In this document: in pieces, positions 1,875 to 48,159 of the stretch
Layout of the letters: the number at the start of each line of letters is the position of its first letter
Position numbering within the stretch: the stretch's first letter is position 1
Source of the DNA: Antedon mediterranea
Lineage: Eukaryota; Echinodermata; Crinoidea; Comatulida; Antedonidae
NCBI RefSeq assembly: GCF_964355755.1
Contig: NC_092674.1
Location: 29,562,001-29,626,000, forward strand
DNA length: 64,000 nt
Reading direction: 5' to 3'
Position numbers and translations under genes: made by a program
The notes under the pieces: model-generated
Database searches by the model: none
The model's input: only the letters and a program-made list of their open reading frames with translations
What the model was told of the DNA's origin: nothing

Positions 1875-2244
1875 GAGCTATATTTCCTATACCATCCTGG
1901 CTAGTTGAGAATTCTCAACTATTTTATGTTTTTTTCTACCTTTCTGGGAAATGATATAATCCAAATTGTATTAATACTACCAGTAGTAAACATTTAGAAA
2001 CACTTGCATACCTTCACTAATTTTAGTTGTTTGTAGTTTAAGACAATCTTAGTGATATTTAAATGAAAACAATACCATAAAAACTATTGTGTCTGTATTT
2101 TACAAGACTATGACTTCCGTATAACGTGCATTGTGGGTACTTCAATTTTTATAGAAAAGCTAGGGAATCCTAATTTAGTAGGTAGCATATGGGGGCGGGG
2201 CAACCAAACTTGCTTATCAAATCAAAGCACAGTAAAGCAAAGGA

Positions 2245-3710
2245 TAAAATTAATGCACGATCCAGTTTACCACTGTTCTCAACTATAGTCATTTTAGTAT
2301 ACTTGAGCACAGTGATAAAGAATAGGATAAACTTAACAATATACAACAAATAGCATTAATGTACGATCCAGTTTAACACTGTTCTCAACTATAGACATTT
2401 TGGTATACTTGAGCACAGTGATAAAGAATAGGATAAACTTAACAATATACAACAAAAAACATTAATGTACGATCCAGTTTAACACTGTTCTCAACTATAG
2501 TCATTTTGGTATACTTGAGAACAGTGATAAAGAATAGGATAAACTTAACAATATACAACAAATAACATTAATGTATGATCCCGTTTAACACTATTCTCAA
2601 CTATAGTCATTTTGGTATACTTGAGCACAGTGATAAAGAATAGGATAAACTTAACAATATACAACAAATAACATTAATGTATGATCCCGTTTAACACTGT
2701 TCTCGACTATAGTCATTTTGGTATATACTTGAGCACAGTGATAAAGAATGGGATAAACTTAACAATATACAACAAATAACATTAATGTACGATCCCGTTT
2801 AACACTGTTCTCAACTATAGTCATTTTGGTATACTTGAGCACAGTGATAAAGAATAGGATAAACTTAATAATATACAACAAATAACATTAATGTACGATC
2901 CCGTTTAACATTGTTCTCAACTATAGTCATTTTGGTATACTTGAGCACAGTGATAAAGAATAGGATAAACTTAATAATATACAACAAATAGCATTAATGT
3001 ACGATCCCGTTTAACACTGTTCTCAACTATAGTCATTTTGGTATACTTGAGCACAGTGATAAAGAATAGGATAAACTTAATAATATACAACAAATAGCAT
3101 TAAGGTATGATCCCGTTTAACACTGTTCTCGACTATAGTCATTTTGGTATGAGCACAGTGATAAAGAATAGGATAAACTTAACAATATACAACAAATAAC
3201 ATCAATGTACGATGTAGTTTAACACTGTTCTCAACTATAGTCATTTTGGTATACTTGAGCACAGTGATAAAGAATAGGATAAACTTAATAATATACAACA
3301 AATAAAATTAATGTATGATCCCGTTTAACACTGTTCTCAACTATAGTCATTTTGGTATACTTGAGCACAGTGATAAAGTATAGGATAAACTTAACAATAT
3401 ACAACAAATAACATTAATGTATGATCCCGTTTAACACTGTTCTCAACTATAGTCATTTTGGTATACTTGAGCACAGTGATAAAGAATAGGATAAACTTAA
3501 CAATATACAACAAATAACATTAATGTATGATCCCGTTTAACACTGTTCTCGACTATAGTCATTTTGGTATACTTGAGCACAGTGATAAAGAATAGGATAA
3601 ACTTAACAATATACAACAAATAACATTAATGTACGATCCCGTTTAACACTGTTCTAACTATAGTCATTTTGGTATACTTGAGCACAGTGATAAAGAATAG
3701 GATAAACTTA
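2245..3710 (+). repeat. FB1 left array, ~106-bp monomer A, + orientation, ~14 copies
   Basis: Monomer A holds a hairpin: left arm CACTGTTCTCAACTATA, 10-base loop, right arm TATACTTGAGCACAGTG (15 of 17 positions pair). Then comes the linker TGATAAAGAATAGGA and an AT-rich spacer ending in ACATTAATGTACGATCCCG. Copies differ by a few substitutions and short indels. Confidence 0.95.
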
Positions 3711-5544
3711 TTGCAACTTGTCCATGTCGTATTCATCTACAAATAAAGTGTCTATTACCGTACTTTTAAAAATCTATTTATATCAATACCTATCAACGTA
3801 TGTACGTGTGCATATTATATTATACAAAAATATATACATCAACATAAATGTCATATCATCTACAGTCATTAGTGTTATTTCACCTTTAATATTAGTAAAT
3901 CCAAAGGCAAAATACTTAAATAATAACAATGCTGTGGTCTCAATGGAGATACAAAAAAAGAAGCGAGAAGCTAAATCAAAACGAAATGTGCTAATGCGTA
4001 TAGATATGCTGAGTGGTTTCCGAGAAATATGATTACGCATAATATGGCCTTACGGAAAAGTAATACATACCAGGTCCCCAAAAATAAGACAAATAGATAT
4101 GGAAACAGTGCAATCCCGTTTCTCACTCGCTGCCTCAACAGTATTGATTAAATAATAAAAGAAAATAAATGTATAATGTAACCAGATATTAATTAATTTG
4201 ACATATAGGCCTAGTAGAAATTTCTTGAATTTGACTCAATTTATTCTTAATTCTCATTTAATTTTGTATTTAATGTTTTTGTAAATGTATAATTGTAATT
4301 ATTTAATTGTCTGAAGTCGACTTTAATTAAGAAACCAATGTAAATACTGCAACTTAAATTTAAGATTATATTTTTATACTGTAATTAAGCATGGACTATT
4401 CTTTAATCCATGAATTAAGTAATAATGTATATACTATATCCTTGCAATAAGACTATATGTTTTTAACTTTATGTTTACATTTACATATATTTTGTAATTG
4501 CGATAATTTTGTTTAATGATGACTATTACTTTACTTGTCTTTTGAATGTATATTGTCCCTTACCATGCAATTCAGTAGATTTGCTGCCAATTGGTTTGTT
4601 TTTAATAAAGAAAGAAAGAAAGACAGATAAAGTAAAACAGCCAGAACAAGTTAGCAGAGTTTCGGGCAACACTAGCCCTTCATCAGTGCAAGTGAGGGTA
4701 CCTGTACAAGATAGTGTTATTTAACGTTTAGTCGATTTATATCAATACACTCATCAACATATGTACATGTAATTCACGTCTACAATCAATAGTGTTAATT
4801 CCACTTTTAAAAGTCGATTTATATCAATATACTCATCAACATATGTACGTGTCCATGTCATATTCATCTATAAATATTAGTGTTATTTCACTTTTAAAAG
4901 TCGATTTATCAATATACTCATCAATATAATGTACTTGTCCACGTCATATTCATTTACAAATCAGTGTTATTTCACTTTTCGAAGTCAATTATATCAATAT
5001 AGGCCTACTCATCAACATATGTACGTGCAATTCACGTCATATTCATATATGATCAATAGTGTACAACTAATAGTGTTATTTCACTTTTAAAAGTCGATTT
5101 ATATCAATATAATCATCAACATTATGTACCGTACGTGTCCACGTCATATTCATCTACAAATATTAGTGTTATTTCACTTTTAAAAGTCGATTTATATCAA
5201 TATACTCATCAACATATGTAAATCGTGTCCAAGTCATATTCATCTACAAATATTGGTGTTAATTTGACTTTTAAAAGTCGATTTATATCAATATACTAAT
5301 CAATATATGTACGTGTCCACGTCATATTCATCTACAAATATTAGTGTTATTTCACTGTTCAAAGTCGATTTATATAAATATACTACTCATCAACATAATG
5401 TACGTGCAATTCACGTCATATTTATCTACAATCATTTGTGTTAATTCCACTTTTAAAAGTCAATTTATATCAATTACTTATGAACATATGTACGTGTCCG
5501 CGTCATTCATCTACAAATATTATAGTGTTATTATGTTTTTCATA
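3711..5544. repeat. FB1 centre with ~86-bp tandem repeat and retroelement-like motif
   Basis: From 4735 to 5530 about nine copies of an 86-bp unit (AAGTCGATTTATATCAATAT, CATCAACATATGTACGTGTC, CATCTACAAATATTAGTG) run in tandem; one more decayed unit lies at 3715-3890. Between them, 3900-4730 is mostly unique. It includes a (GAAA)n tract near 4610 and, inverted, the CTGATGAAGG...GCCCGAAA-type motif also found at 58327. Short ORFs here follow the repeats and are not credible genes. Confidence 0.8.
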
Positions 5545-8500
5545 TTATCACTGTGCTCAAGTATATGAAAATAACTATAGTTGAGAAAAGTGTTAAACAG
5601 GATCGTGTACATCAATGGTATTTGTTGTATATTGTGCTCAAGTATACCAAATGACTATAGTTGAGAACAGTGGTAAACGGGATCGTACATTAATGTTTTT
5701 TGTTGTATATTATTAAGTTTATCTTATTCTTTATCACTGTGCTCAAGTATACCAAAATGACTATAGTTGAGAACAGTGGTAAACTGGATCGTACATTAAT
5801 GTTATTTGTTGTATATTATTAAGTTTATCCTATTCTTTATCACTGTGCTCAAGTATACCAAAATGACTATAGTTGAGAATAGTGTTAAACGGGATCATAC
5901 ATTAATGTTATTTGTTGTATATTGTTAAGTTTATCCTATTCTTTATCACTGTGCTCAAGTATACCAAAATGACTATAGTTGAGAACAGTGGTAAACTGGA
6001 TCGTACATTAATGTTATTTGTTGTATATTATTAAGTTTATCCTATTCTTTATCACTGTGCTCAAGTATACCAAAATGACTATAGTTGAGAACAGTGTAAA
6101 CAGGATCGTACATTAATGTTTTTTGTTGTATATTGTTAAGTTTATCCTATTCTTTATCACTGTTCTCAAGTATACCAAAATGACTATAGTTGAGAACAGT
6201 GTTAAACTGGATCGTACATTAATGTTTTTTGTTGTATATTTTTAAGTTTATCCTATTCTTTATCACTGTGCTCAAGTATATACCAAAATGACTATAGTCG
6301 AGAACAGTGTTAAACGGGATCATACATTAATGTTATTTGTTGTATATTGTTAAGTTTATCCTATTCTTTATCACTGTGCTCAAGTATACCAAAATGACTA
6401 TAGTTGAGAACAGTGTTAAACGGGATCGTACATTGATGTTATTTGTTGTATATTGTTAAGTTTATCCTATTCTTTATCACTGTGCTCAAGTATACCAAAA
6501 TGACTAAAGTTGAGAACAGTGTTAAACGGGATCATACATTAATGTTATTTGTTGTATATTGTTAAGTTTATCCTATTCTTTATCACTGTGCTCAAGTATA
6601 CCAAAATGACTATAGTCGAAAATAGTGTTAAACGGGATCATACATTAATGTTATTTGTTGTATATTGTTAAGTTTATCCTATTCTTTATCACTGTGCTCA
6701 AGTATACCAAAATGATTATAGTTGAGAACAGTGTTAAACGGGATCATACATTAATGTTATTTGTTGTATATTGTTAAGTTTATCCTATTCTTTATCACTG
6801 TGCTCAAGTATACCAAAATGACTATAGTTGAGAACAGTGTTAAACGGGATCGTACATTAATGTTATTTGTTGTATATTGTTAAGTTTATCCTATTCTTTA
6901 TCACTGTGCTCAAGTATACCAAAATGACAATAGTTGAGAACAGTGTTAAACGGGATCGTACATTGATGTTATTTGTTGTATATTATTAAGTTTATCCTAT
7001 TCTTTATCACTGTGCTCAAGTATACCAAAATGACTAAAGTTGAGAACAGTGTTAAACGGGATCATATACATTGATGTTATTTGTTGTATATTGTTAAGTT
7101 TATCCTATTCTTTATCACTGTGCTCAAGTATACCAAAATGACTATAGTTGAGAACAGTGTTAAACGGGATCGTACATTGATGTTATTTGTTGTATATTGT
7201 TAAGTTTATCCTATTCTTTATCACTGTGCTCAAGTATACCAAAATGATTATAGTTGAGAACAGTGTTAAACGGGATCATACATTAATGTTATTTGTTGTA
7301 TATTGTTAAGTTTATCCTATTCTTTATCACTGTGCTCAAGTATACCAAAATAACTATAGTTGAGAACAGTGTTAAACGGGATCGTACATTGTTGTTGTAT
7401 ATTGTTAAGTTTATCCTATTCTTTATCACTGTTCTCAAGTATACCAAAATGACTATAGTTGAGAACAGTGTTAAACTGGATCGTACATTAATGTTTTTTG
7501 TTGTATATTTTTAAGTTTATCCTATTCTTTATCACTGTGCTCAAGTATATACCAAAATGACTACAGTCGAGAACAGTGTTAAACGGGATCATACATTAAT
7601 GTTATTTGTTGTATATTGTTAAGTTTATCCTATTCTTTATCACTGTGCTCAAGTATACCAAAATGACTATAGTTGAGAACAGTGTTAAACGGGATCGTAC
7701 ATTGATGTTATTTGTTGTATATTGTTAAGTTTATCCTATTCTTTATTACTGTGCTCAAGTATACCAAAATGACTAAAGTTGAGAACAGTGTTAAACGGGA
7801 TCATACATTAATGTTATTTGTTGTATATTGTTAAGTTTATCCTATTCTTTATCACTGTGCTCAAGTATACCAAAATGACTATAGTCGAAAATAGTGTTAA
7901 ACGGGATCATACATTAATGTTATTTGTTGTATATTGTTAAGTTTATCCTATTCTTTATCACTGTGCTCAAGTATACCAAAATGACTATAGTTGAGAACAG
8001 TGTTAAACGGGATCGTACATTAATGTTATTTGTTGTATATTGTTAAGTTTATCCTATTCTTTATCACTGTGCTCAAGTATACCAAAATGACTATAGTTGA
8101 GAACAGTGTTAAACGGGATCGTACATTGATGTTATTTGTTGTATATTGTTAAGTTTATCCTATTCTTTATCACTGTGCTCAACTATACCAAAATGACTAT
8201 AGTTGAGAACAGTGTTAAACGGGATCGTACATTGATGTTATTTGTTGTATATTGTTAAGTTTATCCTATTCTTTATCACTGTGCTCAAGTATACCAAAAT
8301 GACTATAGTTGAGAACAGTGTTAAACGGAATCATACATTAATGTTATTTGTTGTATATTGTTAAGTTTATCCTATTCTTTATCACTGTGCTCAAGTATAC
8401 CAAAATGATTATAGTTGAGAACAGTGTTAAACGGGATCATACATTAATGTTATTTGTTGTATATTGTTAAGTTTATCCTATTCTTTATCACTGTGCTCAA

Positions 8501-8790
8501 GTATACCAAAATGACTATAGTTGAGAACAGTGTTAAACGGGATCGTACATTGTTGTTGTATATTGTTAAGTTTATCCTATTCTTTATCACTGTGCTCAAG
8601 TACACCAAAATGGCTATAGTTGAGAACAGTGTTAAACGGGATCGTACATTAATGTTATTGGTTGTATATTGATAAGTTTATCCTATTCTTTATCAATGTG
8701 CTCAAGTATACCAAAATGACTATAGTTGAGAACAGTGTTAAACTACATCGTACATTAATGTTATTTGTTGTATATTGTTAAGTGTATTCT
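5545..8790 (-). repeat. FB1 right array, monomer A, - orientation, ~30 copies
   Basis: Same 106-bp monomer as 2245-3710 but reversed. A few copies are shortened in the spacer (for example near 7390 and 8550). ORFs that repeat at about 1.16-kb offset (7293, 8454) show block copying of several monomers. Confidence 0.95.
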
Positions 8791-9072
8791 TTATTCTTAT
8801 TAATTGTACTAAATTATTAAAAGAAACAGTAGTAAGCATAACATTTCCCCACTCCTACATTAACATGGTAGGACATTGTAATGGTCGCAGGTGGCTCAAC
8901 TTTATTACTGCAATGGGATGGACATGGTCCTACTACCACCTTACCATCCAATAGGATTCCAGTAAATTTCCTTTACTACCAATCATAATTTAAATGACCC
9001 CTTAAGTTAACAAGGAAATCAGCCTATCCCATTATGCCGGTAGGCTTCGTCGTACAGGCGTACTGCGGTAAT
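8791..9072. other. FB1 right subterminal unique region
   Basis: About 280 bp of non-repeated DNA (GGTAGGACATTGTAATGGTC, CCATTATGCCGGTAGGCTTC). It recurs reversed and almost unchanged at 29120-29420 in FB2, so it belongs to the element. Confidence 0.85.
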
Positions 9073-9117
9073 AGTTGAGAATTCTCAACTAGCCAATTTG
9101 GTATATTTTATATACCT

Positions 9118-9125
9118 GTCAATAG
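9118..9125. other. FB1 target-site duplication, right
   Basis: GTCAATAG immediately after the ATATACCT end, identical to 1867-1874. Confidence 0.9.
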
Positions 9126-9294
9126 TCGACTATGATTGTATGCAAGATAAATAAATGGTCATAGCGCCACCAATATGTAACCGACATGGTTACGCTCGAG
9201 TGAGTCTATAGATAAACAAAAACTGTCTTCCTGTTTCCTCTTTTACAACAACAACTGGGTGAAATATGGTTTTTAGCCTATATTGCTGACAATC

Positions 9295-12200
9295 ATGTTT
9301 CTTCTTACATTGTTATGTAGTCTTCTGTGTTCTAGGCAAATCTTAGCTCTTTCAGAAGTTGACAATTTTAATAGTTTTATTATGAAATTCAATAGATCTT
9401 ATGAAATTGGTTCAGAAGAGTACAACAAACGACTTTCTATTTTCAAGGTAGCTGCCAGCACCACTACTTGTAGTAACTAGCCATATTTTAACAGGGGGTT
9501 TTGTTGGGAGGGGAAGAGGTTAATATTATAGTTTATACTGCAATATTAAATATTTAAACACAATTGATTTTGCAGGAAAGCATTGAAAGACAGAGACGGT
9601 TAAACAATGGAAGAAAGGATCCGGATGATGCCAAATATGGCATTAACGATTTTTCCGATTTAACTCCGGAAGAGTTCACACACAAATATCTTGGAGGTTA
9701 TCGGCCAGAACAAATTACTCACCTAGTTGATATACAATTTAAACAGAATTATAATAAAATACCATCTAAATTTACATTGTAAGTTAAAGTCAAAGTAATC
9801 AATTTTATCAATAGAACCGAACCTCTTTCATCAAGGAAGTAATACCTCCAACAAAATTCCCCCCTTGATAAAATGTCCCCTTAATAAAAATGTCCTCTTA
9901 ATAGAAATATCCCTTTTATAGCAGTGTCCTGTGTTAAAGGAGGGGGTACTGGTGTACGTACATAAACACGTAGTATATAATATTATAACACAAACCCTTA
10001 TATTATAATGAAAATTATATAACCACAGATTGGTGTTGGATAATATAAATCTTCTTACGCTAATATTCTCTTAAATATTTATGGTATATATAAAAAGTCA
10101 AAAATAAGTTAATAAAATAAATATTAATATCGTTTGAGAGTATTAATAAATAATAATTCTTTTGAATATAAAATGGGCTAAAAAGAAGAATTGAAATATA
10201 CCAAATTAACATAAACACTACAATTATTACAAATCAAAACACAGTTTGGCCAATAAAACAGCTATCAAATTTAAATTGTTTTTCAGACAAGGTAAAGGAG
10301 TTTTAACATCTGTACGTGACCAAGGGAAGGTAATTAAACTAAATGTTTTAAACACGTAGATAACCATCCGGCTTCTTCTAAGCTCATGTGATGTGATATG
10401 CCCATATATGGACATGATGATGTTATATTACTATCATATTTGAGTGTGTCCCTACCAAATTTGGGGCATATCACATCTTTTGTCAAACTAGTTTGATAGT
10501 GTAGACAGAACTTAAGTCTCTTTCCATTGTTAAATTTTATGGAAGACATGATGTGTTATTATAACTAACAATATGTCATTCATTAAAGATAGTTATTTAT
10601 CATACAGTGTCTGTGACAAAAAGCACACTTCTACCAGTACACTATAGCACTCCCTTAATGTACACCAAGTACCTATAAGTACTGAACAATTATCAGTGTT
10701 AATTAATTGTCTTAAGGTTAAGTACCAGTAGTTTTATTTTATCTATTTGATATCCTTCTTTTTCATTTTAACAGTGCGGAGGTTGCTGGTAAGTAAATAT
10801 AACAACAATTTTATTGGCCAGATGATTGACGTACTCTGACGTAAATCTCACCTTATACTTATTGGTGCAGAATCTAACCCTAACCCTGGCCCTGGGTGCA
10901 AGCTTGTTGGTCTAGAGGTATGAACACCACGCTAGTGATCTGGAGGTCGTGGGTTCCAGTCCGAGATGCAAAGCTACTTAGCTAGTAGTTCACCAATTCC
11001 TCTTCTCCCGGAGATTAGATCTATGTGACTTGTAGATGTTGATGATTCCTAGAAACTATATTTACAGTTTTTTTCATATCACAAACCCCTTGTCAAATCA
11101 CTTGGATAGTACTAGTGTCCATATTGTCACAGGCCTTTCCAATCACAGAGTATGATTCCTACTGGATAAAAATCAATACGCTAACAAATTTCAACAATTT
11201 GTTAAAGATATATTGTCCCCCGGAAAAAATGTTTTTGTTGAAAATACCATTTTAATATCACATAAAATTATTCACTTTTACCAAAAATTTGATAGAAAAA
11301 AATAATTCTTTACCTGAAAAAATATTTTTTTTTAAATGTTTTTATTGAATATGCCATTTTAATATCACATAATAATTATTTAGTTTGACCAAAAACTGGA
11401 TAAAAAAAAAAAATTCTTTACCTGAAAAATTTAACTGAAAAATAATCAAACTGCGAAATGACCTATTCAAAGCCTTTTTTTATTCATCTTTTATTTTTTT
11501 CATCTTTTTATTCTTCTTTTATTCTTCATCTTTTCATGTTTTTTTCGTGACAATACATCTAATATAAAAATCATTTTCCAACAGGGCGTTCAGCATTATT
11601 GAATGTATGGAGACCCAGAGTGCATTAAAAAGTAAGAAGCTTCCTACGTTAAGCCCACAGCAGTTGATTGACTGCGCACAAGGCGGTGGGGATGCGGGTT
11701 GCCATGGCGGAAATGTATGCAATACATTGATGTGGATGAACACAACTGGTTTCAAAGCTGTACATGATAAGGAGTATCCATTCAAAGAAACAACTGGAGC
11801 GTGTAAAAAGATGAGGTTAGAATTTTAAAATGATTTGAAGACAGGCACCATGAGATTAGTTAGCAAGCACCATGCACGATTATTTTTAAAATGCAACCCT
11901 AAAAAATGAATACTTTCTTTCAGTACTGGAATCCTCTCAATCACTGACTACTGGTGCAAAAAGTAAGTAAGCCAGTTATTTTGTAGACATTTTAATTGTA
12001 CACAACCATAGAGATAATCACTATAATATCTCTATGACATAAGACACAGACGTGTCACAGGTGTGACCATATGCTAATTTTGTTTTACCAGTAAGCCAAT
12101 AATAGGCTTTTATAATTTATTTATTATTTATTTCTTTTATGATTTTGATTAGTATGACGGGTAAAGAAGATGCAATGGTGGCTAGCGTATACAACCACGG

Positions 12201-12713: not shown

Positions 12714-12849
12714 TATTATGCACAAGGTGACACCAACAGTACTATGTTCTAATATAACAAAAGCATTTTATCAACCTGGTGCCAACGTTTTCTTTCTAGA
12801 GATGAAGTTAGTAGATTTAGTTTCTGGCCCTTTAATAATAAATAATATC

Positions 12850-14160: not shown

Positions 14161-14164
14161 TTAA

Positions 14165-15520: not shown

Positions 15521-22246
<6,726 letters not shown>

Positions 22247-28585: not shown

Positions 28586-28630
28586 AAAATCTACTCCTAT
28601 TGTTGCCCCTTGACCTGGTGGAAATAAACC
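28574..28630 (-). pseudogene. RAB30: Truncated RAB30 exon 2 (left copy)
   Basis: Encodes GLFPPGQGATIGVDFMIK with its AG acceptor intact, then runs straight into the FB4 right end where the functional copy continues TLQIGGDKVK. Exons 3 and 4 are absent, so this RAB30 copy cannot make a GTPase. Confidence 0.9.
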
Positions 28631-29067: not shown

Positions 29068-29075
29068 ACGCTAGC
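29068..29075. other. FB2 target-site duplication, left
   Basis: ACGCTAGC before the AGGTATAT end; identical to 37608-37615. Confidence 0.9.
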
Positions 29076-29439
29076 AGGTATATAAAATATACCAAATTGG
29101 CTAGTTGAGAATTCTCAACTATTACCGCAGTACACCTGTACGACGAAGCCTACCGGCATAATGGGATAGGCTGATTTCCTTGTTAACTTAAGGGGTCATT
29201 TAATTACTGAATTATGATTGGTAGTAAAGGAAATTTACTGGAATCCTATTGGATGGTAAGGTGGTAGTAGGACCATGTCCATCCCATTGCAGTAATAAAG
29301 TTGAGCCACCTGCGACCATTACAATGTCCTACCATGTTAATGTAGGAGTGGGGAAATGTTATGCTTACTACTGTTTCTTTTAATAATTTAGTACAATTAA
29401 TAAGAATAAAGAATACACTTAACAACAGGGCCTATACAA

Positions 29440-32400: not shown

Positions 32401-32570
32401 ATGTACGATCCAGTTTACCACTGTTCTCAACTATAGTCATTTTGGTATACTTGAGCACAGTGATAAAGAATAGGATAAACTTAACAATATACAACAAATA
32501 AAATTAATGTATGATCCCGTTTAACACTGTTCTCAACTATAGTTATTTTCATATACTTGAGCACAGTGAT
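29440..32570 (+). repeat. FB2 array, monomer A, + orientation, ~29 copies
   Basis: Same 106-bp hairpin monomer as in FB1. One copy near 29750 carries an extra AGGCCT inside the spacer (CAATAT-AGGCCT-ACAAC). Confidence 0.95.
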
Positions 32571-34390: not shown

Positions 34391-37240
34391 GCAATAAGTT
34401 TATCCTATTCTTTATCACTGTGCTCAAGTATACCAAAATGGCTATAGTTGAGAACAGTGTTAAACGGGATCGTACATTAATGTTATTTGTTGTATATTGT
34501 TAAGTTTATCCTATTCTTTATCACTGTGCTCAAGTATACCAAAATGACTATAGTTGAGAACAGTGTAAACGGGATCATACATTAATGTTATTTGTTGTAT
34601 ATTGTTAAGTTTATCCTATTCTTTATCACTGTGCTCAAGTATACCAAAATGACTATAGTCGAGAACAGTGTTAAACGGGATCATACATTAATGTTATTTG
34701 TTGTATATTATTAAGTTTATCCTATTCTTTATCACTGTGCTCAACTATACCAAAATGACTATAGTTGAGAACAGTGTTAAACGGGATCGTACATTGATGT
34801 TATTTGTTGTATATTGTTAAGTTTATCCTATTCTTTATCACTGTGCTCAAGTATACCAAAATGACTATAGTTGAGAACAGTGTTAAACGGGATCGTACAT
34901 TGATGTTATTTGTTGTATATTGTTAAGTTTATCCTATTCTTTATCACTGTGCTCAACTATACCAAAATGACTATAGGTGAGAACAGTGTTAAACGGGATC
35001 GTACATTGATGTTATTTGTTGTATATTGTTAAGTTTATCCTATTCTTTATCAATGTGCTCAAGTATACCAAAATGACTATAGTTGAGAACAGTGTTAAAC
35101 GGGATCATACATTAATGTTATTTGTTGTATATTGTTAAGTTTATCCTATTCTTTATCACTGTGCTCAAGTATACCAAAATGACTATAGTTGAGAACAGTG
35201 TAAACGGGATCATACATTAATGTTATTTGTTGTATATTGTTAAGTTTATCCTATTCTTTATCACTGTGCTCAAGTATACCAAAATGACTATAGTTGAGAA
35301 CAGTGTTAAACGGGATCATACATTAATGTTATTTGTTGTATATTATTAAGTTTATCCTATTCTTTATCACTGTGCTCAAGTATACCAAAATGACTATAGT
35401 TGAGAACAGTGTTAAACGGGATCGTACATTAATGTTATTTGTTGTATATTGTTAAGTTTATCCTATTCTTTATCACTGTGCTCAAGTATACCAAAATGAC
35501 TATAGTTAGAACAGTGTAAACGGGATCATACATTAATGTTATTTGTTGTATATTGTTAAGTTTATCCTATTCTTTATCACTGTGCTCAAGTATACCAAAA
35601 TGATTATAGTCGAGAACAGTGTTAAACGGGATCATACATTAATGTTATTTGTTGTATATTGTTAAGTTTATCCTATTCTTTATCACTGTGCTCAAGTATA
35701 CCAAAATGACTATAGTTTAGAACAGGGTTAAACTGGATCGTACATTAATGTTATTTGTTGTATATTGTTAAGTTTATCCTATTCTTTATCACTGTGCTCA
35801 AGTATACCAAAATGATTATAGTCGAGAACAGTGTTAAACGGGATCATACATTAATGTTATTTGTTGTATATTGTTAAGTTTATCCTATTCTTTATCACTG
35901 TGCTCAAGTATACCAAAATGACTATAGTCGAGAACAGTGTTAAACGGGATCGTACATTAATGTTATTTGTTGTATATTGTTAAGTTTATCCTATACTTTA
36001 TCACTGTGCTCAAGTATACCAAAATGACTATAGTTGAGAACAGTGTTAAACGGGATCATACATTAATTTTATTTGTTGTATATTATTAAGTTTATCCTAT
36101 TCTTTATCACTGTGCTCAAGTATACCAAAATGACTATAGTCGAGAACAGTGTTAAACGGGATCGTACATTAATGCTATTTGTTGTATATTATTAAGTTTA
36201 TCCTATTCTTTATCACTGTGCTCAAGTATACCAAAATGACTATAGTTGAGAACAGTGTTAAACGGGATCGTACATTAATGCTATTTGTTGTATATTATTA
36301 AGTTTATCCTATTCTTTATCACTGTGCTCAAGTATACCAAAATGACTATAGTTGAGAACAGTGTTAAACGGGATAGTACATTAATGTTATTTGTTGTATA
36401 TTATTAAGTTTATCCTATTCTTTATCACTGACGTGCTCAAGTATACCAACATGACTATAGTCGAGAACAGTGTTAAACGGGATCATACCTTAATGCTATT
36501 TGTTGTATTATTAAGTTTATCCTATTCTTTATCACTGTGCTTAAGTATACCAAAATGACTATAGTTGAGAACAGTGTTAAACTGGATGGTACATTAATGT
36601 TATTTGTTCTATATTATTAAGTTTATCCTATTCTTTATCACTGTGCTCAAGTATACCAAAATGACTATAGTTGAGAACAGTGTTAAACTGGATCGTACAT
36701 TAATGCTATTTGTTGTATATTATTAAGTTTATCCTATTCTTTATCACTGTGCTCAAGTATACCAAAATGACTATAGTTGAGAACAGTGTTAAACTACATC
36801 GTACATTAATGTTTTGTTGTATATTGTTAAGTTTATCCTATTCTTTATCACTGTGCTCAAGTATACCAAAATGACTATAGTTGAGAATAGTGTTAAACGG
36901 GATCATACATTAATGTTATTTGTTGTATATTGTTAAGTTTATCCTATTCTTTATCACTGTTCTCAAGTATACCAAAATGACTATAGTTGAGAACATGGGT
37001 TAAACTGGATCGTACATTAATGTTTTTTGTTGTATATTGTTAAGTTTATCCTATTCTTTATCACTGTGCTCAAGTATACCAAAATTTCTATAGTTGAGAA
37101 CAGTGTTAAACTGGATCGTACATTAATGCTATTTGTTGTATATTGTTAAGTTTATCCTATTCTTTATCACTGTGCTCAAGTATACTAAAATGACTATAGT
37201 TGAGAACAGTGGTAAACTGGATCGTACATTAATTTTATCC
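34391..37240 (-). repeat. FB2 array, monomer A, - orientation, ~27 copies
   Basis: Reverse-oriented 106-bp monomers facing the + array across the centre. Variants include CATACATTAATG and CGTACATTGATG spacers that recur in blocks. Confidence 0.95.
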
Positions 37241-37607
37241 TTTGCTTTACTGTGCTTTGATTTGATAAGCAAGTTTGGTTGCCCCGCCCCCATATGCTAC
37301 CTACTAAATTAGGATTCCCTAGCTTTTCTATAAAAATTGAAGTACCCACAATGCACGTTATACGGAAGTCATAGTCTTGTAAAATACAGACACAATAGTT
37401 TTTATGGTATTGTTTTCATTTAAATATCACTAAGATTGTCTTAAACTACAAACAACTAAAATTAGTGAAGGTATGCAAGTGTTTCTAAATGTTTACTACT
37501 GATAGTATTAATACAATTTGGATTATATCATTTTCCAGAAAGGTAGAAAAAAACATAAAATAGTTGAGAATTCTCAACTAGCCAGGATGGTATAGGAAAT
37601 ATAGCTC

Positions 37608-37615
37608 ACGCTAGC
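37608..37615. other. FB2 target-site duplication, right
   Basis: ACGCTAGC directly after the ATAGCTC end. Confidence 0.9.
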
Positions 37616-38084
37616 TATATACCTAGCCTCTAGCCTGACGTTGTATAGTTGCTGCATTAATTGTCTTTCTATTTTTGCCAGACTCCGGAGCTATATATCC
37701 AATACCAAATTGGCGAGTAAATCATGTTTTACTTTAAATTAAATTTATACGCTCTTCCACAAGGTCAATTGTTAGTTATACATACAGACTATATTAAAAC
37801 AATGATTTTGAACACGTAGGGCATTTCTTTAAATTCTTTCCTATTGTCGTTTTGTGGTAATTTACAGCTTTTTATATGTTTAACAAACGTACATAATCAA
37901 TTGCGTCTGCATCATGCTAGACTACAACTTCCGGTAGTGACGTAATCAGCATATTTTTGGTAATAAAACTTTTTCACTAAGCTAGGGAATCTTCTGATAT
38001 CAATATTCATTAGACCGTACTTTAGTTAGCCAATCAAAATAAACGTATAAACAATTTTGCGGCAATGTTACATGTTGTTGAGGT

Positions 38085-41000
38085 AAAATATACTGTGTTT
38101 TACAATAACCAATTTGGTTAGAGTAAAACACAATGATAAAGAATAGGAAACATTTAATAATATGATAAATGACATTTACGTAGCAATTTATCACTGTGTT
38201 TTACTATAACCAATTTGGTTAGAGTAAAACACAATGATAAAGAATAGGAAACGTTTAATAATATGATAAATGTCATTACATAGCAATTTATCATTGTGTT
38301 TTACTATAACCAATTTGGTTAGAGTAAAACACAATGATATAGAATAGGCAACATTTAATAATATGATAAATGACATTTACATAGCAATTTAGCACTGTGT
38401 TTTACTATAACCAATTTGGTTAGAGTAAAACACAATGATATAGAATAGGAAACATTTAATAATTTGATAAATGACATTTACATAGCAATTTTAGCACTGT
38501 GTTTTACTATAACCAATTTGGTTAGAGTAAAACACAATGATAAAGAATAGGAAACATTTAATAATAATGATTATTTACATAGCAATTTAGCACTGTGTTT
38601 TACTATAACCAATTTGGTTATAGTAAAACACAATGATAAAGAATAGGAAACATTTAATAATATGATATATGACATTCACATAGCAATTTATCACTGTGTT
38701 TTACTATAACCAATTTGGTTAAAGTAAAACACAATGATATAGAATAGGAAACATTTAATAATAATGATTATTTACATAGCAATTTAGCACTGTGTTTTAC
38801 TATAACCAATTTGGTTATAGTAAAACACAATGATAAAGAATAGGAAACATTTAATAATATGATATATGACATTCACATAGCAATTTATCACTGTGTTTTA
38901 CTATAACCAATTTGGTTAAAGTAAAACACAATGATATAGAATAGGAAACATTTAACAATTTGATAAATGACATTTACGTAGCAATTTATCACTGTGTTTT
39001 ACTATAACCAATTTGGTTAGAGTAAAACACAATGATAAAGAATAGGAAACGTTTAATAATATGATAAATGTCATTACATAGCAATTTATCACTGTGTTTT
39101 ACTATAACCAATTTGGTTAGAGTAAAACACAATGATATAGAATAGGCAACATTTAATAATATGATAAATGACATTTACATAGCAATTTAGCACTGTGTTT
39201 TACTATAACCAATTTGGTTAGAGTAAAACACAATGATATAGAATAGGAAACATTTAATAATTTGATAAATGACATTTACTTAGCAATTTTAGCACTGTGT
39301 TTTACTATAACCAATTTGGTTAGAGTAAAACACAATGATAAAGAATAGGAAACATTTAATAATAATGATTATTTACATAGCAATTTAGCACTGTGTTTTA
39401 CTATAACCAATTTGGTTAGAGTAAAACACAATGATAAAGAATAGGAAACATTTAATAATAATGATTATTTACATAGCAATTTAGCACTGTGTTTTACTAT
39501 AACCAATTTGGTTATAGTAAAACACAATGATAAAGAATAGGAAACATTTAATAATATGATATATGACATTCACATAGCAATTTATCACTGTGTTTTACTA
39601 TAACCAATTTGGTTAAAGTAAAACACAATGATATAGAATAGGAAACATTTAATAATATGATAAATGACATTTACATAGCAATTTAGCACTGTGTTTTACT
39701 ATAAACAATTTGGTTTAAGTAAAGCAGAATGATAAAGAATAGGAATTTAATAATATGATATATGACATTTACATAGCAATTTAGCACTGTGTTTTACTAT
39801 AACCAATTTGGTTAGAGTAAAACACAATGATAAAGAATAGGAAACATTTAATAATATGATATATGACATTCACATAGCAATTTAGCACTGTGTTTTACTA
39901 TAACCAATTTGGTTAGAGTAAAACACAATGATATAGAATAGGAAACATTTAATAATTTGATAAATGACATTTACATAGCAATTTAGCACTGTGTTTTACT
40001 ATAACCAATTTGGTTAAAGTAAAACACAATGATAAAGAATAGGAAACATTTAATAATATGATAAATGACATTTACATAGCAATTTAGCACTGTGTTTTAC
40101 TATAACCAATTTGGTTAAAGTAAAACACAATGATAAAGAATAGGAAACATTTAATAATATGATAAATGACATTTACATAGCAATTTAGCACTGTGTTTTA
40201 CTATAACCAATTTGGTTAAAGTAAAGCAGAATGATAAAGAATAGGAATTTAATAATATGATATATGACATTTACATAGCAATTTAGCACTGTGTTTTACT
40301 ATAACCAATTTGGTTATGGTAAAACACAATGATATAGAATAGGAAACATTTAATAATATTGATTATTTACATAGCAATTTAGCACTGTGTTTTACTATAA
40401 CCAATTTGGTTATAGTAAAACACAATGATATAGAATAGGAAACATTTAATAATATGATAAATGACATTTACATAGCAATTTATCACTGTGTTTTACTATA
40501 ACCAATTTGGTTATGGTAAAGCACAATGATATAGAATAGGAAACATTTAATAATATGATAAATGACATTTACATAGCAATTTATCACTGTGTTTTACTAT
40601 AACCAATTTGGTTATGGTAAAGCACAATGATATAGAATAGGAAACATTTAATAATATGATAAATGACATTTACATAGCAATTTATCACTGTGTTTTACTA
40701 TAACCAATTTGGTTAAAGTAAAACATAATGATAAAGAATAGGAAACATTTAATAATTTGATAAATGACATTTACATAGCAATTTAGCACTGTGTTTTACT
40801 ATAATCAATTTGGTTATGGTAAAGCACAATGATATAGAATAGGAAACATTTAATAATATGATAAATGACTTACATAGCAATTTAGCACTGTGTTTTACTA
40901 TAAACAATTTGGTTAAAGTAAAACACAATGATAAAGAATATGAAACATTTAATAATTTGATAAATGACATTCACATAGCAATTTAGCACTGTGTTTTACT

Positions 41001-42320
41001 ATAACCAATTTGGTTATGGTAAAGCACAATGATATAGAATAGGAAACATTTAATAATATGATAAATGACATTTACATAGCAATTTAGCACTGTGTTTTAC
41101 TATAACCAATTCGGTTATGGTAAAGCACAATGATATAGAATAGGAAACATTTAATAATAATGATTATTTACATAGCAATTTATCACTGTGTTTTACTATA
41201 ACCAATTTGATTAGAGTAAAACACAATGATATAGTATAGGAACATTTAATAACATGATAAATGACATTTACATAGCAATTTATCACTGTGTTTTACTATA
41301 ACCAATTTGGTTATGGTAAAGCACAATGATATAGAATAGGAAACATTTAATAATATGATAAATGACATTTACATAGCAATTTATCACTGTGTTTTACTAT
41401 AACCAATTTGGTTAAAGTAAAACATAATGATAAAGAATAGGAAACATTTAATAATTTGATAAATGACATTTACATAGCAATTTAGCACTGTGTTTTACTA
41501 TAATCAATTTGGTTATGGTAAAGCACAATGATATAGAATAGGAAACATTTAATAATATGATAAATGACTTACATAGCAATTTAGCACTGTGTTTTACTAT
41601 AAACAATTTGGTTAAAGTAAAACACAATGATAAAGAATATGAAACATTTAATAATTTGATAAATGACATTCACATAGCAATTTAGCACTGTGTTTTACTA
41701 TAACCAATTTGGTTATGGTAAAGCACAATGATATAGAATAGGAAACATTTAATAATATGATAAATGACATTTACATAGCAATTTAGCACTGTGTTTTACT
41801 ATAACCAATTCGGTTATGGTAAAGCACAATGATATAGAATAGGAAACATTTAATAATAATGATTATTTACATAGCAATTTATCACTGTGTTTTACTATAA
41901 CCAATTTGATTAGAGTAAAACACAATGATATAGTATAGGAACATTTAATAACATGATAAATGACATTCACATAGAAATTTAGCACTGTGTTTTACTATAA
42001 CCAATTTGATTAGAGTAAAGCACAATGATAAAGAATAGGAAACATTTAATAATATGATAAATGACATTTACATAGTAATTTATCACTGTGTTTTACTATA
42101 ACCAATTTGGTTAGAGTAAAACATTTTAACTATGATAAATGATATTTAGCACTGTGCTGGATAAAGTAAAACACAAATAAAGAATAGGAAACATATAATA
42201 ATGTGATACATTTACAAACAAATTTAGTATTGTGTTTTACTATAGCCAATTTGGTTACAGTAAAACACAATGATAATGAAACATTTATTATATGATGTTA
42301 TTTACATAGCAAAATATTAT
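38085..42320 (+). repeat. FB3 left array, ~101-bp monomer B, + orientation, ~40 copies
   Basis: Monomer B has arms CACTGTGTTTTACTATAACC and GGTTATAGTAAAACACAATG (19 of 20 pair) around AATTT. The linker TGATAAAGAATAGGA is shared with monomer A, followed by a spacer with ATGACATTTACATAGCAATT. Blocks of 7 and 8 monomers are themselves repeated (offset about 699 bp at 40480/41180; about 798 bp at 38190/38990). Confidence 0.95.
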
Positions 42321-43610
42321 ATTAAACATATCTTATTATCTAAACGTTATGATAAAGAATAGGATACATATAATGTAATAATATAATAAATACAAGTTAC
42401 ATAGTTTATCATCTTGTTTTACAGAACCAATTTGGTGACACAGTTAAACACAGTGATAAAGAATAGATACTGTTTTAGGTTATATAACCCTAACCCTAGT
42501 TTGAAGCGACATAATAAATTCATCGCGAAAAAGTACGTATCGTATTCAGAAACTTTTGAAATTTGTTAGATATGTTTAATAGGTTCTTACGTCTATAAAA
42601 CAAACAAAAAATATAAATTTCACGAAAAATTCGTGATTTTAATAATTTGCATTTCTAAAAATGTACACTTATGAAATACCATACATTTTCCAACACATTT
42701 TTACTTCATTGATGATTCCCAGAAATCAAATTAAAACAAATTATGATATTTCTTTTACATTATAGATGTAAGAACCTATATTGAACATGTACCAAATTTC
42801 AAACGTTTTTTAAGACGATACGTATTTTTATCGATGAATTAAGTATGTGATCGCTTCAAACTAGGGTTAGGGTTAAATAACCTAACAGTTCCATTCTTTA
42901 ACACTGTGTTTAACTTTTAACCAAATTGGTTTTAGTACAACACAAGGATAAACTATGTACATTTTATTTTTCATATTACATTATAGGATACATATAATGT
43001 AATAATAATAAATACAAGTTACATAGTTTATCATCTTGTTTTACAGAACCAATTTGGTTACCCAGTTAAACACAGTGATAAAGAATAGACACTGTTTTAG
43101 GTTATATAACTCTAACCCTAGTTTGAAACGATCACATACTTAATTCATCGCGAAAAAATACGTATCGTATTCAGAAACATTTGAAATTTGGTAAATATGT
43201 TCAATAGGTTCTTACGTCTATAAAACAAACAAAAAATAAAAGTTTCAAGACAAATTCGTGATTTTAATAATTTGCATTTCTAAACATTTACACTTATGAA
43301 AGACAATACATTTCCAACACATTTTTACTTCATTGATGATTCCCAGAAATCAAAATAAAACTATTAGGATATTTCTTTTGCATTATAGATGTAAGAACCT
43401 ATATTGGACATATCTACCAAATATCAAACGTTTTTCAAGACGATACGTATTTTTAGCGATGAATATTAAATATGTGATCGCTTCAAACTAGGGTTAGGGT
43501 TAAATAAACTAAAACAGTTATATTCTTTATCACTCACTGTGTTTAACTTTTAACCAAAATGGTTATAGTAAAACACAATGATAAACTTATATGTAAATTT
43601 TATTTTTCAT
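42321..43610. repeat. FB3 centre: two ~615-bp modules with telomere-like AACCCTAACCCTA flanks
   Basis: Each module contains a degenerate monomer B followed by an inverted-repeat unit (about 42480-42890 and 43098-43510). The unit is bounded by AACCCTAACCCTAGTTTGAA and its inverse TTCAAACTAGGGTTAGGGTT, with arms carrying CGTATCGTATTCAGAAAC and TAGGTTCTTACGTCTATAAA. A third partial arm lies at 43840-44110. The telomere-like motif is only two repeats long. Probably a MITE captured and duplicated together with the satellite. Confidence 0.75.
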
Positions 43611-44524
43611 AACATAAAATGTTTGATATTCTTTATAATATTTAATATTATATTTTAGGCCTACTATTAATGACGTATAAATGCACACTACATCTGAAAT
43701 AACTTTCTACTTCATTGGCGATTCTTACCAAAAAAAAAGAACTAATTTTGTTATGTATATAGAGCAACCTATTATAACATGTCTTGTATGATTTTTATCT
43801 CGTTTCAATGACATTTTATACTACAATTCAAATGAAAAAGCATCACAAAATACGTCTGGTATTCAAAAAGTTTCTAAACTCGGTACACAGAAAAAACGAA
43901 TATGTTGAAAATGTATGGTCTTTCATAAGTGTGAATTTTTAGAAATGCAAATAATGGAAGTCATCGATTTGTCTTGAAATTTATAATTTGTTTCGTCTTA
44001 TTGAATATATCTATACAAAATGTCAAACGTTTCTGAATACGATACGTTTTTTTTCTCGATGAATTTATAATGTCGCTTCAAACTAGAGGGTAGGGTAGTA
44101 ACCTAACAAGTATCTATTCTTTATCACTATGTTTAACTGTGTAACCATATTGGTTCTAATAAAAAACAATGATAAACTATGTAAATTGTATGTTTCATAT
44201 ATTACATTTTTGCCAAAAAAAATTATTGGGAATGTCAAATTTCTTTTTCATGACATATATCTACAAATTTCAGAAGCTTTTGAATACGAGTATTTTACGC
44301 AATGTTTTTTTATCCTCATTTTAATATTTTGGTAATGTAATTCACATGCATAAAGTTTTGTATCCAAAAATTGTTTATTCTTGGGTAGAAATGAGGAAAT
44401 AAATAGTATTCCTGTATAATATAATAATCACTAATAAAGTATTTAAAAAAGTGTTGTGTAAACGAACGTTTTTTACACTTCGAATTTTCTGTTACATTAT
44501 GTTTGAATTGAAGCTACAGATATT

Positions 44525-44573
44525 GAATCATGGACCTATAAATTAGTAATTTATAGGTCCATGATTGAACATA
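44525..44573. mobile_element. Micro-palindrome insertion (CATGGACCTATAAATT family)
   Basis: CATGGACCTATAAATT, a 4-base loop, then AATTTATAGGTCCATG, flanked by ATTGAAT and ATTGAAC. Same unit as at 50759-50798. Confidence 0.65.
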
Positions 44574-44843
44574 TCGTCACTCACCACACATTTTTTGTTT
44601 TGTATTTCGAAAGTATTTATTCTAAAGAACAATTGATGCAAACATCAACTGCGTATCTTATTTCATTAATTAATTATATTAATTATAATTTGGCGATTAT
44701 TCGTCACACGAAGCGTCGAATATCGATTCGTCTCGTCATGGGAAGAAAACGTGCATTGCGCACACTGTTTACGCGTCTCAACAATAAACGGCGAATATGC
44801 GATTCGTCACTAATTATGGAACGCCGTTTTACACAAGTTTTTG

Positions 44844-45048
44844 GCGATGATAAAAATTGCGTCGATGATGAAATTGCGTCGATGAAAATTGCATCGACGC
44901 AATGTAGATTGCGTCGACGCAATTTACATTGCGTCGATGAAAATTGCATCGATGAAAATTGCGTCGATGAAAATTGCGTCGATGAAAACTGCATCGATGA
45001 AAATTGCGTCGATGAAAACTGCATCGATGAAAATTGATGTGATGAATT
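44844..45048 (+). repeat. 15-bp minisatellite, left block (FB3 centre)
   Basis: Tandem GATGAAAATTGCGTC / GATGAAAATTGCATC units. The ORF decoding to repeated DENC-V/I is a by-product of the 15-bp period. Confidence 0.9.
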
Positions 45049-45460
45049 TAATTGATTATGAAAATTCCAAATGGTTTTAATTCAATCAATGATGAAAATG
45101 ACTACTAGTAAAGTAAATGATGATGTTAATAATGATGTTAATAATGTTATTATGTTGCTAAAAATTGACGGTTTCTGAATATTTTGATATGATAAACATG
45201 TTTACCGCTTGCGCTAGCGCGCGTTATAGACAAGCGCACAGTGAGCGCGCACTAAAACAATGTTGAAATATATGCACTGATTAACATTTTAGTGATTTAT
45301 TGTCAACACATTTTAGCAATGGATCCATTATTGTCCTTTCGGACACATTATATCTTCTAGCTAATTGCTTCCGTTAATCCACCAGTTCAGTAGGCCTACA
45401 TAAAATTCAGATGTCCAGCATCCATGACATCATATTCAAATCATACCGGCAGGGAGATCG
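45049..45460. other. FB3 core between inverted minisatellites
   Basis: Unique DNA including GCGCTAGCGCGCGTTATAGA near 45213. It sits near the middle of the element, between oppositely oriented 15-bp arrays. No gene seen. Confidence 0.6.
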
Positions 45461-45690
45461 CAATTTTCATCGATGCAGTTTTCATCGATGCAGTTTTCAT
45501 CGACGCAATTTTCATCGACGCAATTTTCATCACATTAACGCAATTTTCATTACATCGACGCAATTTTCATCGACGCAATGTTCATCACATCGACTTATAT
45601 TTTCATTACATCAATACTATATTCATCGACACAATTTCATCACATCGACGCAATTTTCATTGCATCATCGACGCGATTTTATCATCGCCT
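45461..45690 (-). repeat. 15-bp minisatellite, right block (inverted)
   Basis: TTCATCGACGCAATT / TTCATCGATGCAGTT units, the reverse complement of 44844-45048, with some AC-ATC variants. Together the two blocks form a second, inner foldback. Confidence 0.9.
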
Positions 45691-46074
45691 AAACTGGCAT
45701 TCCATACTAATTGCGTGTGATCTGATTGGTGTATTATAAATAAATTCATCGCAATGAATTTTTCAGTAGATGTAATGAGACAGAGTTCAGTAGATGTAAT
45801 GACAGTTAATTTAATTGTTCTGCTCTTTTTGTACAAATCTATACTACTTTATATTATGGATTTTGTAGTACTGTTAAAATTATTAAATCTCTGGAAGTGT
45901 GTTTTACGAGTATGTCCGCAAATTTATGCGTTTACGGTTTTAAAATGTGAGTTTTAAATAGCGAACATGATCTTGTTAGGTGCACTACGCACGCAGTATT
46001 CCAAAATGTCTTACTAATTTGGAGAAAATCATATTGTATCATATCATATTATATCCATTCTTTAAATTCATATT
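45691..46074. other. FB3 segment without recognised content
   Basis: Includes a 67-codon ORF (45754-45957) with no recognisable domain. Otherwise AT-rich DNA leading into the right array. Confidence 0.4.
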
Positions 46075-47195
46075 CTTTATCCAAAACTAAATTGGTATAG
46101 TAAAACACAGTGCTAGCAATTTATCATATTATTAAATGTTTCATATTCTTTATCATTGTGTTTTACTCTAATCAAATTGGTATAGTAAAACACAGTGCTA
46201 AATTGCTATGTGAATGTCATTTATCATATTTTTAAATGTTTCCTATTCTTTATCATTGTGTTTAACTCTAACCAAATTGGTTATAGTAAAACACAGTGCT
46301 AAATTGCTATGTAAATGTTATATATCATATTATTAAATTCCTATTCTTTATCATTGTGTTTTACTCTAACCAAATTGGTTATAGTAAAACACAGTGATAA
46401 ATTGCTATGTAAATGTAATTTATCATATTATTAAATGTTTCCTATTCTTTATCATTGTGTTTTACTCTAACCAAATTGGTTATAGTAAAACACAGTGATA
46501 AATTGCTATGTAAATGTAATTTATCATGTTATTAAATGTTTCCTATTCTTTATCGTTGAGTTTTACTCTAATCAAATTGGTTATAGTAAAACACAGTGCT
46601 AAATTGCTATGTAAATGTTATATATCATATTATTAAATGTTTCCTATTCTTTATCATTGTGTTTTACTCTAATCTGATTGGTTATAGTAAAACACAGTGC
46701 TAAATTGCTATGTGAATGTCATTTATCATGTTATTAAATGTTTCCTATTCTTTATCATTGTGCTTTACTCTAACCAAATTGGTTATAGTAAAACACAGTG
46801 CTAAATTGCTATGTAAATGTCATTTATCATGTTATTAAATGTTTCTTATTCTTTATCATTTTGTTTTACTCTAACCAAATTGGTTATAGTAAAACACAGT
46901 GCTAAATTGCTATGTAAATGTAATTTATCATATTATTAAATGTTTCCTATTCTTTATCATTGTGCTTTACTCTAACCAAATTGGTTATAGTAAAACACAG
47001 TGCTAAATTGCTATGTAAATGTCATTTATCATGTTATTAAATGTTTCTTATTCTTTATCATTGTGTTTTACTCTAACCAAATTGGTTATAGTAAAACACA
47101 GTGCTAAATTGCTATGTAAATGTAATTTATCATATTATTAAATGTTTCCTATTCTTTATCATTGTGTTTTACTCTAACCAAATTGGTTATAATTT
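46075..47195 (-). repeat. FB3 right array, monomer B, - orientation, ~11 copies
   Basis: Reverse-oriented 101-bp monomers (TTTCCTATTCTTTATCATTG, GTTTTACTCTAACCAAATTG). About a quarter of the left array's length, so the foldback arms are unequal. Confidence 0.95.
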
Positions 47196-48159
47196 ATTTA
47201 ATTTCATTTCAAAAGACATTTACCTAAATTTCTATTTAAATGTCATTTATCAAATTATTAAATGTTTCCTATTATTTATCTGGTTATATAGTAAAACACT
47301 GTGCTAAATTGCTATTGTATTAAGGACGAGTTCCGAGAAGATGTATTCAAAGCTACAACCAATCAGAACAGTGTTAATCAATATAGTCCATGGCTACAGC
47401 CAATCAGAAACGTCCAAATCGCAATAACCCCTAGGCTAATAGAAATTATTGGTCCGAGTAGCCTTTTCAACCAGACGTTGCGAGGTTTAAAAAGTAAAAC
47501 ATGATTTACTCGCCAGTTTGGTATAGTTTATATACCTGGACTCCGTTGATACAAATTGGGGAAAACCCGGTATTTTCGTTGAAAAGTTAGGAGTCTTCCA
47601 TTTGTTTTGGCTTCACGATCGATCGAAAAGTGGGCGAATTACAGGTGAAAAACAAAAATATCAATCCGCGCGCAATGCATTTTGGGATTTATAGCGGGCC
47701 GCTATAATTATTAGAATCGATTTATTTTTCACATTTTTAACCGTTTAAAGACGAAAAAAGTTATCGCAATAGGACCATATAGTATTATTTTTACATTACA
47801 TATAGTTTGTGATCTTAAATTAGATCTAAAAAACGTAGGGAATGGGGCTTTAATTTTAACCCAAAAACCAGACAGACAATTTAAGCATTTTTTTGTTTTA
47901 AATTACATTTTTTCAGGTAAATATTTTATTTGATCCAGTTTTAATTCAAATGAATAATTATTACATGACATTAACATGACATATTCAAAAACAAAATTTG
48001 AAAATTATGAAAATTATAATGACAATATATCTTTAATATTAACAACATACAGCACTGCATATTTATTAATTTTAGTTTATTTTTTCTAGTTTGTACGTAC
48101 ATATTAATGCAGTTTGTAGTGTCACAGTGTCAAAGGTGAAGAAGCTCAAATTCATTGGA

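Follow-up and report, generated by a model that had tools for sequence, protein, structure and literature searches.

Foldback elements of the crinoid Antedon mediterranea: a dyad core common to the array monomers of three families, and a likeness between monomer and element end in one of them

Foldback transposons are recognised by long, internally repetitive inverted ends, a variable middle and a target duplication. In the TU elements of the sea urchin and FB of Drosophila the ends carry outer tandem repeats, with units of about 15 bp and of 10-31 bp, and the duplications measure 8 and 9 bp, respectively. Here we describe three elements with all these structural features, FB1, FB2 and FB3, in a stretch of 64,000 nucleotides of the Antedon mediterranea genome (the window, C5:29562001-29626000), together with their relatives in the 354-Mb assembly of 18 contigs that served for all genome-wide searches. 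They are DNA transposons of foldback type, young and with no transposase that could be recognised, like TU and FB in their outer tandem repeats and unlike them in the lengths of unit and target site duplication (TSD). The feature that holds across the three array families A (FB1, FB2), B (FB3) and E is a 45-bp dyad core within the monomer of the array; a likeness between the monomer and the end of its element is clearly above chance only at the right end of family A.

The direct precedent for such a likeness is Tetris, a non-autonomous foldback of Drosophila virilis with tandem repeats in its long inverted ends (PMC4079207; what is said here of Tetris, Galileo and VANDAL follows excerpts of the cited papers). 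Its repeat unit and terminal domain share 37 bp at about 80% identity, and the authors propose that the repeats were derived from the terminal domain (PMC4079207); an earlier note on the window, which proposed that end and monomer change together, knew of no described element with such a rule. The Tetris unit is 220 bp, its TSD 8-10 bp, and Mutator was suggested by the authors (PMC4079207). The crinoid elements are likewise non-autonomous foldbacks with tandem repeats in long inverted ends, with a clear repeat-end likeness at the right end of family A, and an autonomous partner has been found in neither case; unlike Tetris, they have units of 97-106 bp, a 7-bp TSD that departs from the Mutator-type length, a dyad in the unit and several parallel families. 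Galileo, of the P superfamily in Drosophila, makes 7-bp duplications (PMC3573991), the length found here. A binding site lies close to its tip and recurs in its tandem repeats, in Galileo-G in two of the four long repeats per end; the G-subfamily domain bound D. ananassae ends, bound K ends weakly and did not bind N ends (PMC3688188). A binding role has been proposed for Drosophila foldbacks, and a few secondary sites have been demonstrated in Galileo (PMC3688188). The crinoid elements resemble Galileo in the 7-bp TSD, the long internally repetitive inverted ends, the many copies that consist of two ends only, the several subfamilies per genome and the chimeric copies. Some Galileo copies retain remnants of a transposase, whereas no coding copy was found here, and the arrays in the window run to 10-40 units per side. 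Dyad-core foldbacks with paired arm words may already be published, since only open-access literature was searched.

The 45-bp cores of the A, B and E monomers, together with the 13 bases that follow them, are homologous in each pairwise comparison (0/500 shuffles), and 26 of the 45 columns are identical in all three, among them those of CACTGT and the greater part of the centre. The spacers of A and B are related to each other (2/500), whereas those of E are unrelated to those of A and B (397/500 and 451/500). Dyad symmetry joins 16, 20 and 18 of the 22 pairs in A, B and E (0/2000 shuffles each), and at five of the 22 both sides have changed between families with pairing kept (11/500 shuffles; 0-2 when slid by 1-3 columns). 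Family E has a 97-bp unit with 1113 monomer matches in the genome (at most 3 mismatches; control, 0). A core pattern with a purine at the first arm position, the only position searched for further arm-word families, found 19 matches, every one of which looks by eye like a variant of B or E. E-type monomers also lie less than about 100 kb from the starts of several contigs (C1:28724-34183, C2:23284, C4:50566, C7:102582, C11:33479), perhaps as subtelomeric arrays.

Judged from these sequences, the case for the cores as reiterated protein-binding dyads is in our estimate evenly poised. The arrays might instead work through DNA structure, by hairpins or by end synapsis without a sequence-specific protein. 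The dyad in all three cores, the compensated arm changes and the inverted orientation of the arrays suit such a role; the identity of 26 columns in three families is probably more than pairing alone demands, and we think this alternative very improbable.

The layout of FB1, FB2 and FB3 is as follows, with units and copy numbers taken from Tandem Repeats Finder (TRF) and strand given where one was assigned.

1868-1874: TSD TCAATAG, 7 bp, left flank of FB1
1875-9118, plus strand: FB1, family A; left-type end GAGCTATAT at 1875, right-type end ATATACCTG at 9118
1902-1921: FB1 left subterminal palindrome TAGTTGAGAATTCTCAACTA
2244-3710, plus strand: FB1 left array, 106-bp monomers, 13.9 copies (TRF)
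4730-5532: FB1 central second array, units of 82-91 bp (TRF)
5552-8787, minus strand: FB1 right array, inverted, 106-bp monomers, ~30 copies (29.9, plus an adjoining short 2-copy stretch; TRF)
9072-9101: FB1 right subterminal palindrome and GCCAATTTGG
9119-9125: TSD TCAATAG, 7 bp, right flank of FB1
29068-29074: TSD ACGCTAG, 7 bp, left flank of FB2
29075-37607, minus strand: FB2, family A; right-type end at 29075, left-type end at 37607
29433-32572, plus strand: FB2 array adjoining the right-type end, 106-bp monomers, 29.8 copies (TRF)
32585-33407: FB2 central second array, units by eye like those of FB1 4730-5532 on the opposite strand
34395-37238, minus strand: FB2 array adjoining the left-type end, inverted, 106-bp monomers, 26.9 copies (TRF)
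37608-37614: TSD ACGCTAG, 7 bp, right flank of FB2
37681-37687: TSD GACTCCG, 7 bp, left flank of FB3
37688-47538, plus strand: FB3, family B; left-type end at 37688, right-type end at 47538
38092-42123, plus strand: FB3 left array, 101-bp monomers, 40.4 copies (TRF)
46118-47191, minus strand: FB3 right array, inverted, 101-bp monomers, 10.7 copies (TRF)
47539-47545: TSD GACTCCG, 7 bp, right flank of FB3

The two arrays within each element are mutually inverted. A monomer of FB1 resembles those of FB2 as closely as monomers within one arm resemble each other (95.2% identity in both comparisons), and for 44 of 95 monomers an identical one exists in the other element, which indicates that the arrays were inherited. 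The left-type tips of FB1-FB3 read GAGCTATAT and the right-type tips CAGGTATAT. In the window CTCAACTAGCCAATTTGG has two matches when up to 2 mismatches are allowed, both exact and both at the right-type ends of FB1 and FB2 (none in 100 shuffles); the left-type ends of these elements read CTCAACTAGCCAGGATGG, and the two ends of FB3 read TTTACTCGCCAATTTGG and TTTACTCGCCAGTTTGG. The monomer words of the earlier note are the most frequent forms seen, and its end words exist, but CCAATTTGG stands at one end per element only.

Target duplications were compared in 23 A and B elements, 20 fetched from elsewhere in the genome in addition to FB1-FB3. A perfect 7-bp TSD flanks 20 of them and none flanks the other three. 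In the 20, the eighth base is always G beside the right end and variable on the other side (T 7, G 5, C 4, A 4), and therefore belongs to the tip, whose terminal base is a fixed C/G. The 8-bp duplication previously read here is on this pattern rejected in favour of 7 bp, with which the GACTCCG on both flanks of FB3 agrees exactly. The hAT superfamily makes 8-bp target duplications, a length that the A and B elements do not have.

End and monomer were compared by local alignment of the first 60 bp of an end with the monomer of its own family, against 10000 dinucleotide shuffles of the end. The A right end scores 32 (1/10000), the A left end a borderline 22 (408/10000), and the margin of the own monomer over the best other is reached by 18/10000 and 555/10000 shuffles. 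The arm words themselves differ in step between A and B, as the earlier note had seen: A ends carry CTCAACT and A monomers CTCAACT or CTCAAGT, while B ends carry TTTTACT or ATTTACT and B monomers TTTTACT on both arms.

Genome-wide, with at most 3 mismatches, right-type ends have 168 matches (reversed-pattern control, 13) and left-type ends 117 (control, 1). The first 100 of each were used for pairing, so that the pairs obtained are a subset: at least 88 elements, 43 A-A and 45 B-B (sub-variants of B counted), 2.7-22.8 kb long with a median of 8.2 kb, and no mixed A/B pair in the 88 among the matches listed. Identity to the 363-bp A right end is 97-100% in the forty matches that were scored, which marks the family as young. 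At the fetched loci we read 67 ends, the six of the window excluded; in 26 cases an A end looks onto A monomers and in 34 a B end onto B monomers, six ends show no monomer in the stretch read (560 bp or less, in one case only 56 bp) and one is a mosaic. At four sites among the matches listed, the left-type ends of two neighbouring elements lie 7 to 80 bp apart (C1:15791976/15791984, C7:4710397/4710409, C2:14556331/14556349 and window 37607/37688), as though one insertion attracts another.

The mosaic (L017), which exposed family E, has an A end and one A monomer followed by a B right-end region and a B array. The sequence beyond it (L027) holds the third array and then, by eye, an apparent host gene; no second tip was seen in L027, and the mosaic therefore looks like a rearrangement rather than a mobile unit.

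Whether end and array are forced to change together, as had been suggested, comes down to the single contrast of A with B, because the older relative C shares the B word. C (L006) is an old 1.4-kb relative of B with, by eye, one or two units per arm; its left subterminal region is 67% identical to that of B, it is the sole copy among the scored matches, and it keeps the B arm word in end and monomer alike, so that it is not an independent event. In the array-less relatives D and G the arm word differs too, by eye, and a change of word therefore needs no array. D ends (five loci) have no core-like monomer within the ~3 kb read, and a DNA search with one of them matched only itself and one other. 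The G tip, GAGCTATATTATC, accounts for ~270 of 384 tip matches after subtraction of the 117 left-type ends, and in all five fetched copies (L101-L105) it forms part of a larger repeat whose flank is constant. It is a fossil end with no array seen, and hence offers no second test of the rule. The dispersed repeat that bears this tip also carries a GGTCGAGTCGACC palindrome, and by eye an A element in L028 contains a copy of it as an insertion.

Our overall reading, to which we give neither more nor less than half our confidence, is that these are non-autonomous foldbacks moved in trans, with the monomer cores as candidate dimer binding sites, as in Galileo at smaller scale. FB1-FB3 would be mobilised by a transposase whose target duplications are 7 bp long, and each core would be a palindromic site for a dimer of that transposase or of another element-specific DNA-binding protein, a site that in family A would be related to one ~20-50 bp from the right tip. 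The arrays may have expanded through unequal exchange in an ancestral element and then spread along with it. With a long array the protein would be likelier to locate the element against a background of many short sites. The putative family-specific part is the arm within the dyad, and CACTGT, the CCA..TTGG-like centre and the tip would be the shared part.

Several results, from the ends and arrays as well as from the search for a transposase, weigh against this reading. Both B ends match the B monomer at chance level (left, score 21, 1723/10000; right, score 20, 1193/10000; margins over the best other monomer 2183/10000 and 4756/10000), and the resemblance in B rests on short words in AT-rich DNA. 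For family E, a prediction of the ends and the outcomes that would count as failure, absence of CCAAWTTGG among them, were fixed before any E end was fetched. Five E loci were then fetched, and the test used the three of them that have two ends, six ends in all; L039, which has one complete tip of the same E sequence, and L040, which has no complete tip, were left out. E ends read GAGGTATATTCAGAGCGTCATTTCGACGATCGAGCATTCTC, and the first 60 bp of those at the fetched loci hold neither CCAAWTTGG nor a good copy of the monomer arm. All six score 14 against every monomer, where the averages of 400 shuffles are 13.3-13.7 (right ends taken without the terminal C), and so E ends have no match to their own monomers. 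A weak CTCTACT stands at the matching place (6/7 against the E and A words, 5/7 against that of B), and the opposite arm matches no family word (2/7). The general rule that the monomer copies the end is rejected on this failure. Sequence shared between unit and terminal domain, as in Tetris, is clear at the A right end, borderline at the A left end and no better than chance in B and E. In family A the monomer holds a close copy of the subterminal site of the right end.

E belongs to the same group as A and B, given its 7-bp duplications (two of the three two-ended elements; L041 has none). Its array begins with a degenerate first unit ~105 bp from the tip, those of A and B ~330-405 bp from theirs.

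The cores themselves also furnish points against a binding role. Their arm co-variation comprises three sequences only, and these same sequences served to choose the dyad. When monomers of one array are compared, the core exceeds the spacer in uniformity slightly in A (95 monomers, 279/10000) and B (45 monomers, 588/10000) but not in E (95 monomers, 9796/10000), with 42 E, two B and no A segments left out for length. Stronger constraint on the core was therefore dropped as a result consistent over the three families, and homogenisation, not site-by-site selection, seems dominant within arrays. Finally, L015 (C10:7470327-7470879), 553 bp long, consists of two B-type left ends without an array and has a perfect 7-bp TSD, which suggests that an array is not required for every insertion.

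Much of this would suit an ordinary satellite that grew in an ancestral element, its dyad core inherited baggage and its likeness to the end in part a one-off in A and in part a coincidence of short words in AT-rich DNA. The failed E prediction, the chance-level match in B, the lack of a consistently more uniform core and the array-less insertion of L015 all lean that way, as do the satellite-like occurrence of E monomers near contig starts and the second central array of FB1 and FB2, whose unit is by eye unlike the ends. But a satellite does not readily account for a core that alone is common to three families, one of them with an unrelated spacer, for compensating changes on both sides of the dyad, or for the strength of the likeness at the A right end. 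We regard the satellite explanation as unlikely, though by no means negligible.

No open reading frame (ORF) of at least 150 amino acids (aa) starting with ATG, GTG or TTG exists in FB1 or FB2, and FB3 has one repetitive ORF of 158 aa, from which we infer movement in trans. In a survey of 16 A and B elements over their middle or whole length (L001-L005, L090-L100), 11 had no stop-to-stop frame of at least 110 aa. The largest frame of L002 is a nested retrotransposon (RVT_1), with frames of 302 and 390 aa by eye more of the same; frames of L002, L005, L093, L097 and L098 are otherwise largely repetitive. In L097, a B element at C4:25254219-25264641, ~1.95 kb of the middle (L097:1-1949) has no match to FB3 and is partly coding-like; the two frames covered by the scans gave no Pfam family over the cut-off, and this middle is possibly a captured gene fragment or a remnant of the partner. 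No autonomous partner was found in the copies and frames examined, where intron-split genes could escape.

The 7-bp TSD together with long repetitive inverted ends makes the P/Galileo superfamily the likeliest source of the transposase. The genome holds at least 35 matches to PF21787 (best candidates scored; split exons may be missed), and some of the loci are nearly identical to one another and have long open frames. The 88 A and B intervals contain none of the 35, the nearest of which lies 17.7 kb from a listed end. One P-type element, P1, with PF21787 and PF21788, has a 7-bp TSD in both copies read, but its tips are unlike those of the A and B elements. By analogy with Galileo a partner of P type is a fair candidate, and in view of these two results we rate it at somewhat less than even odds. 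An exact [CG]AG[GC]TATAT tip is absent from eight P-type loci of 7 kb, which contain several 9-bp near-matches. Among the P-superfamily loci L082, L083 (C1 and C8), L084, L085 and L089 are two pairs of copies more than 99% identical, with a transposase frame of 794 or 617 aa and, on the other strand, a further frame of ~330-340 aa. A zf-AD-like domain opens the P-type proteins of 617 and 590 aa (25.8 and 25.3 bits, respectively, against a cut-off of 28 bits), and no match to a THAP domain was listed for the P-superfamily proteins scanned.

A protein other than the catalytic transposase might occupy the arrays, namely an element-encoded anti-silencing or regulatory protein comparable to VANC on VANDAL. 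VANC targets are short, often tandemly repeated motifs; they vary from one related element to another, and the motifs of a given repeat change in concert (PMC5735166). The A and B arrays also present a family-specific repeated motif whose units change together. VANDAL motifs bind a protein that the element encodes, whereas no VANC-like coding sequence was recognised in the copies examined here, and VANDALs are described from Arabidopsis (PMC5735166). We give this possibility little credence.

A bolder form of the binding reading is a recognition code in the arrays, with a protein that would contact a dyad with fixed outer CACTGT, inner CCA..TTGG and a family-specific arm, so that A (CTCAACT) and B (TTTTACT) would be two settled states of one lock. 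If the arm preference of the protein shifted, gene conversion and unequal exchange would rewrite dozens of monomers, while selection would rewrite both end palindromes; in E, where the array starts so near the tip, the first unit would serve as the end site. We consider this code distinctly doubtful.

The surroundings of the elements can be added briefly. Two Mab-21 family (cGAS-like) genes lie downstream of FB3 (window 48499-50607 and 55106-56398; PF03281, PF20266), and a frame immediately right of FB1 (window ~9290-9448) resembles, by eye only, the start of a cathepsin-type proenzyme. A 21-bp unit, CATATCACTACCATATTTGGG, occurs in 2-3 copies at unrelated sites (window 1185-1234, 51832-51880 and 59418-59461; L021:665-731). 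Inverted 10-bp arrays of ACCGAAAACA and TTGTTTTCGG, ~1 kb apart (L021:1375-1508 and 2345-2437; L027:1617-1689 and 2493-2565), are probably another small foldback family.

One genome thus holds several parallel foldback families with related tips, equal TSD length, homologous dyad cores and different arms, and relatives with zero, one or two units complete a natural series on the question of why foldback arrays exist. Transposase binding, escape from silencing or no role at all are the candidates. With ~40-55 dyad sites per element and two arm words, a single protein and four or five DNA probes would be enough to test the role of the arrays.

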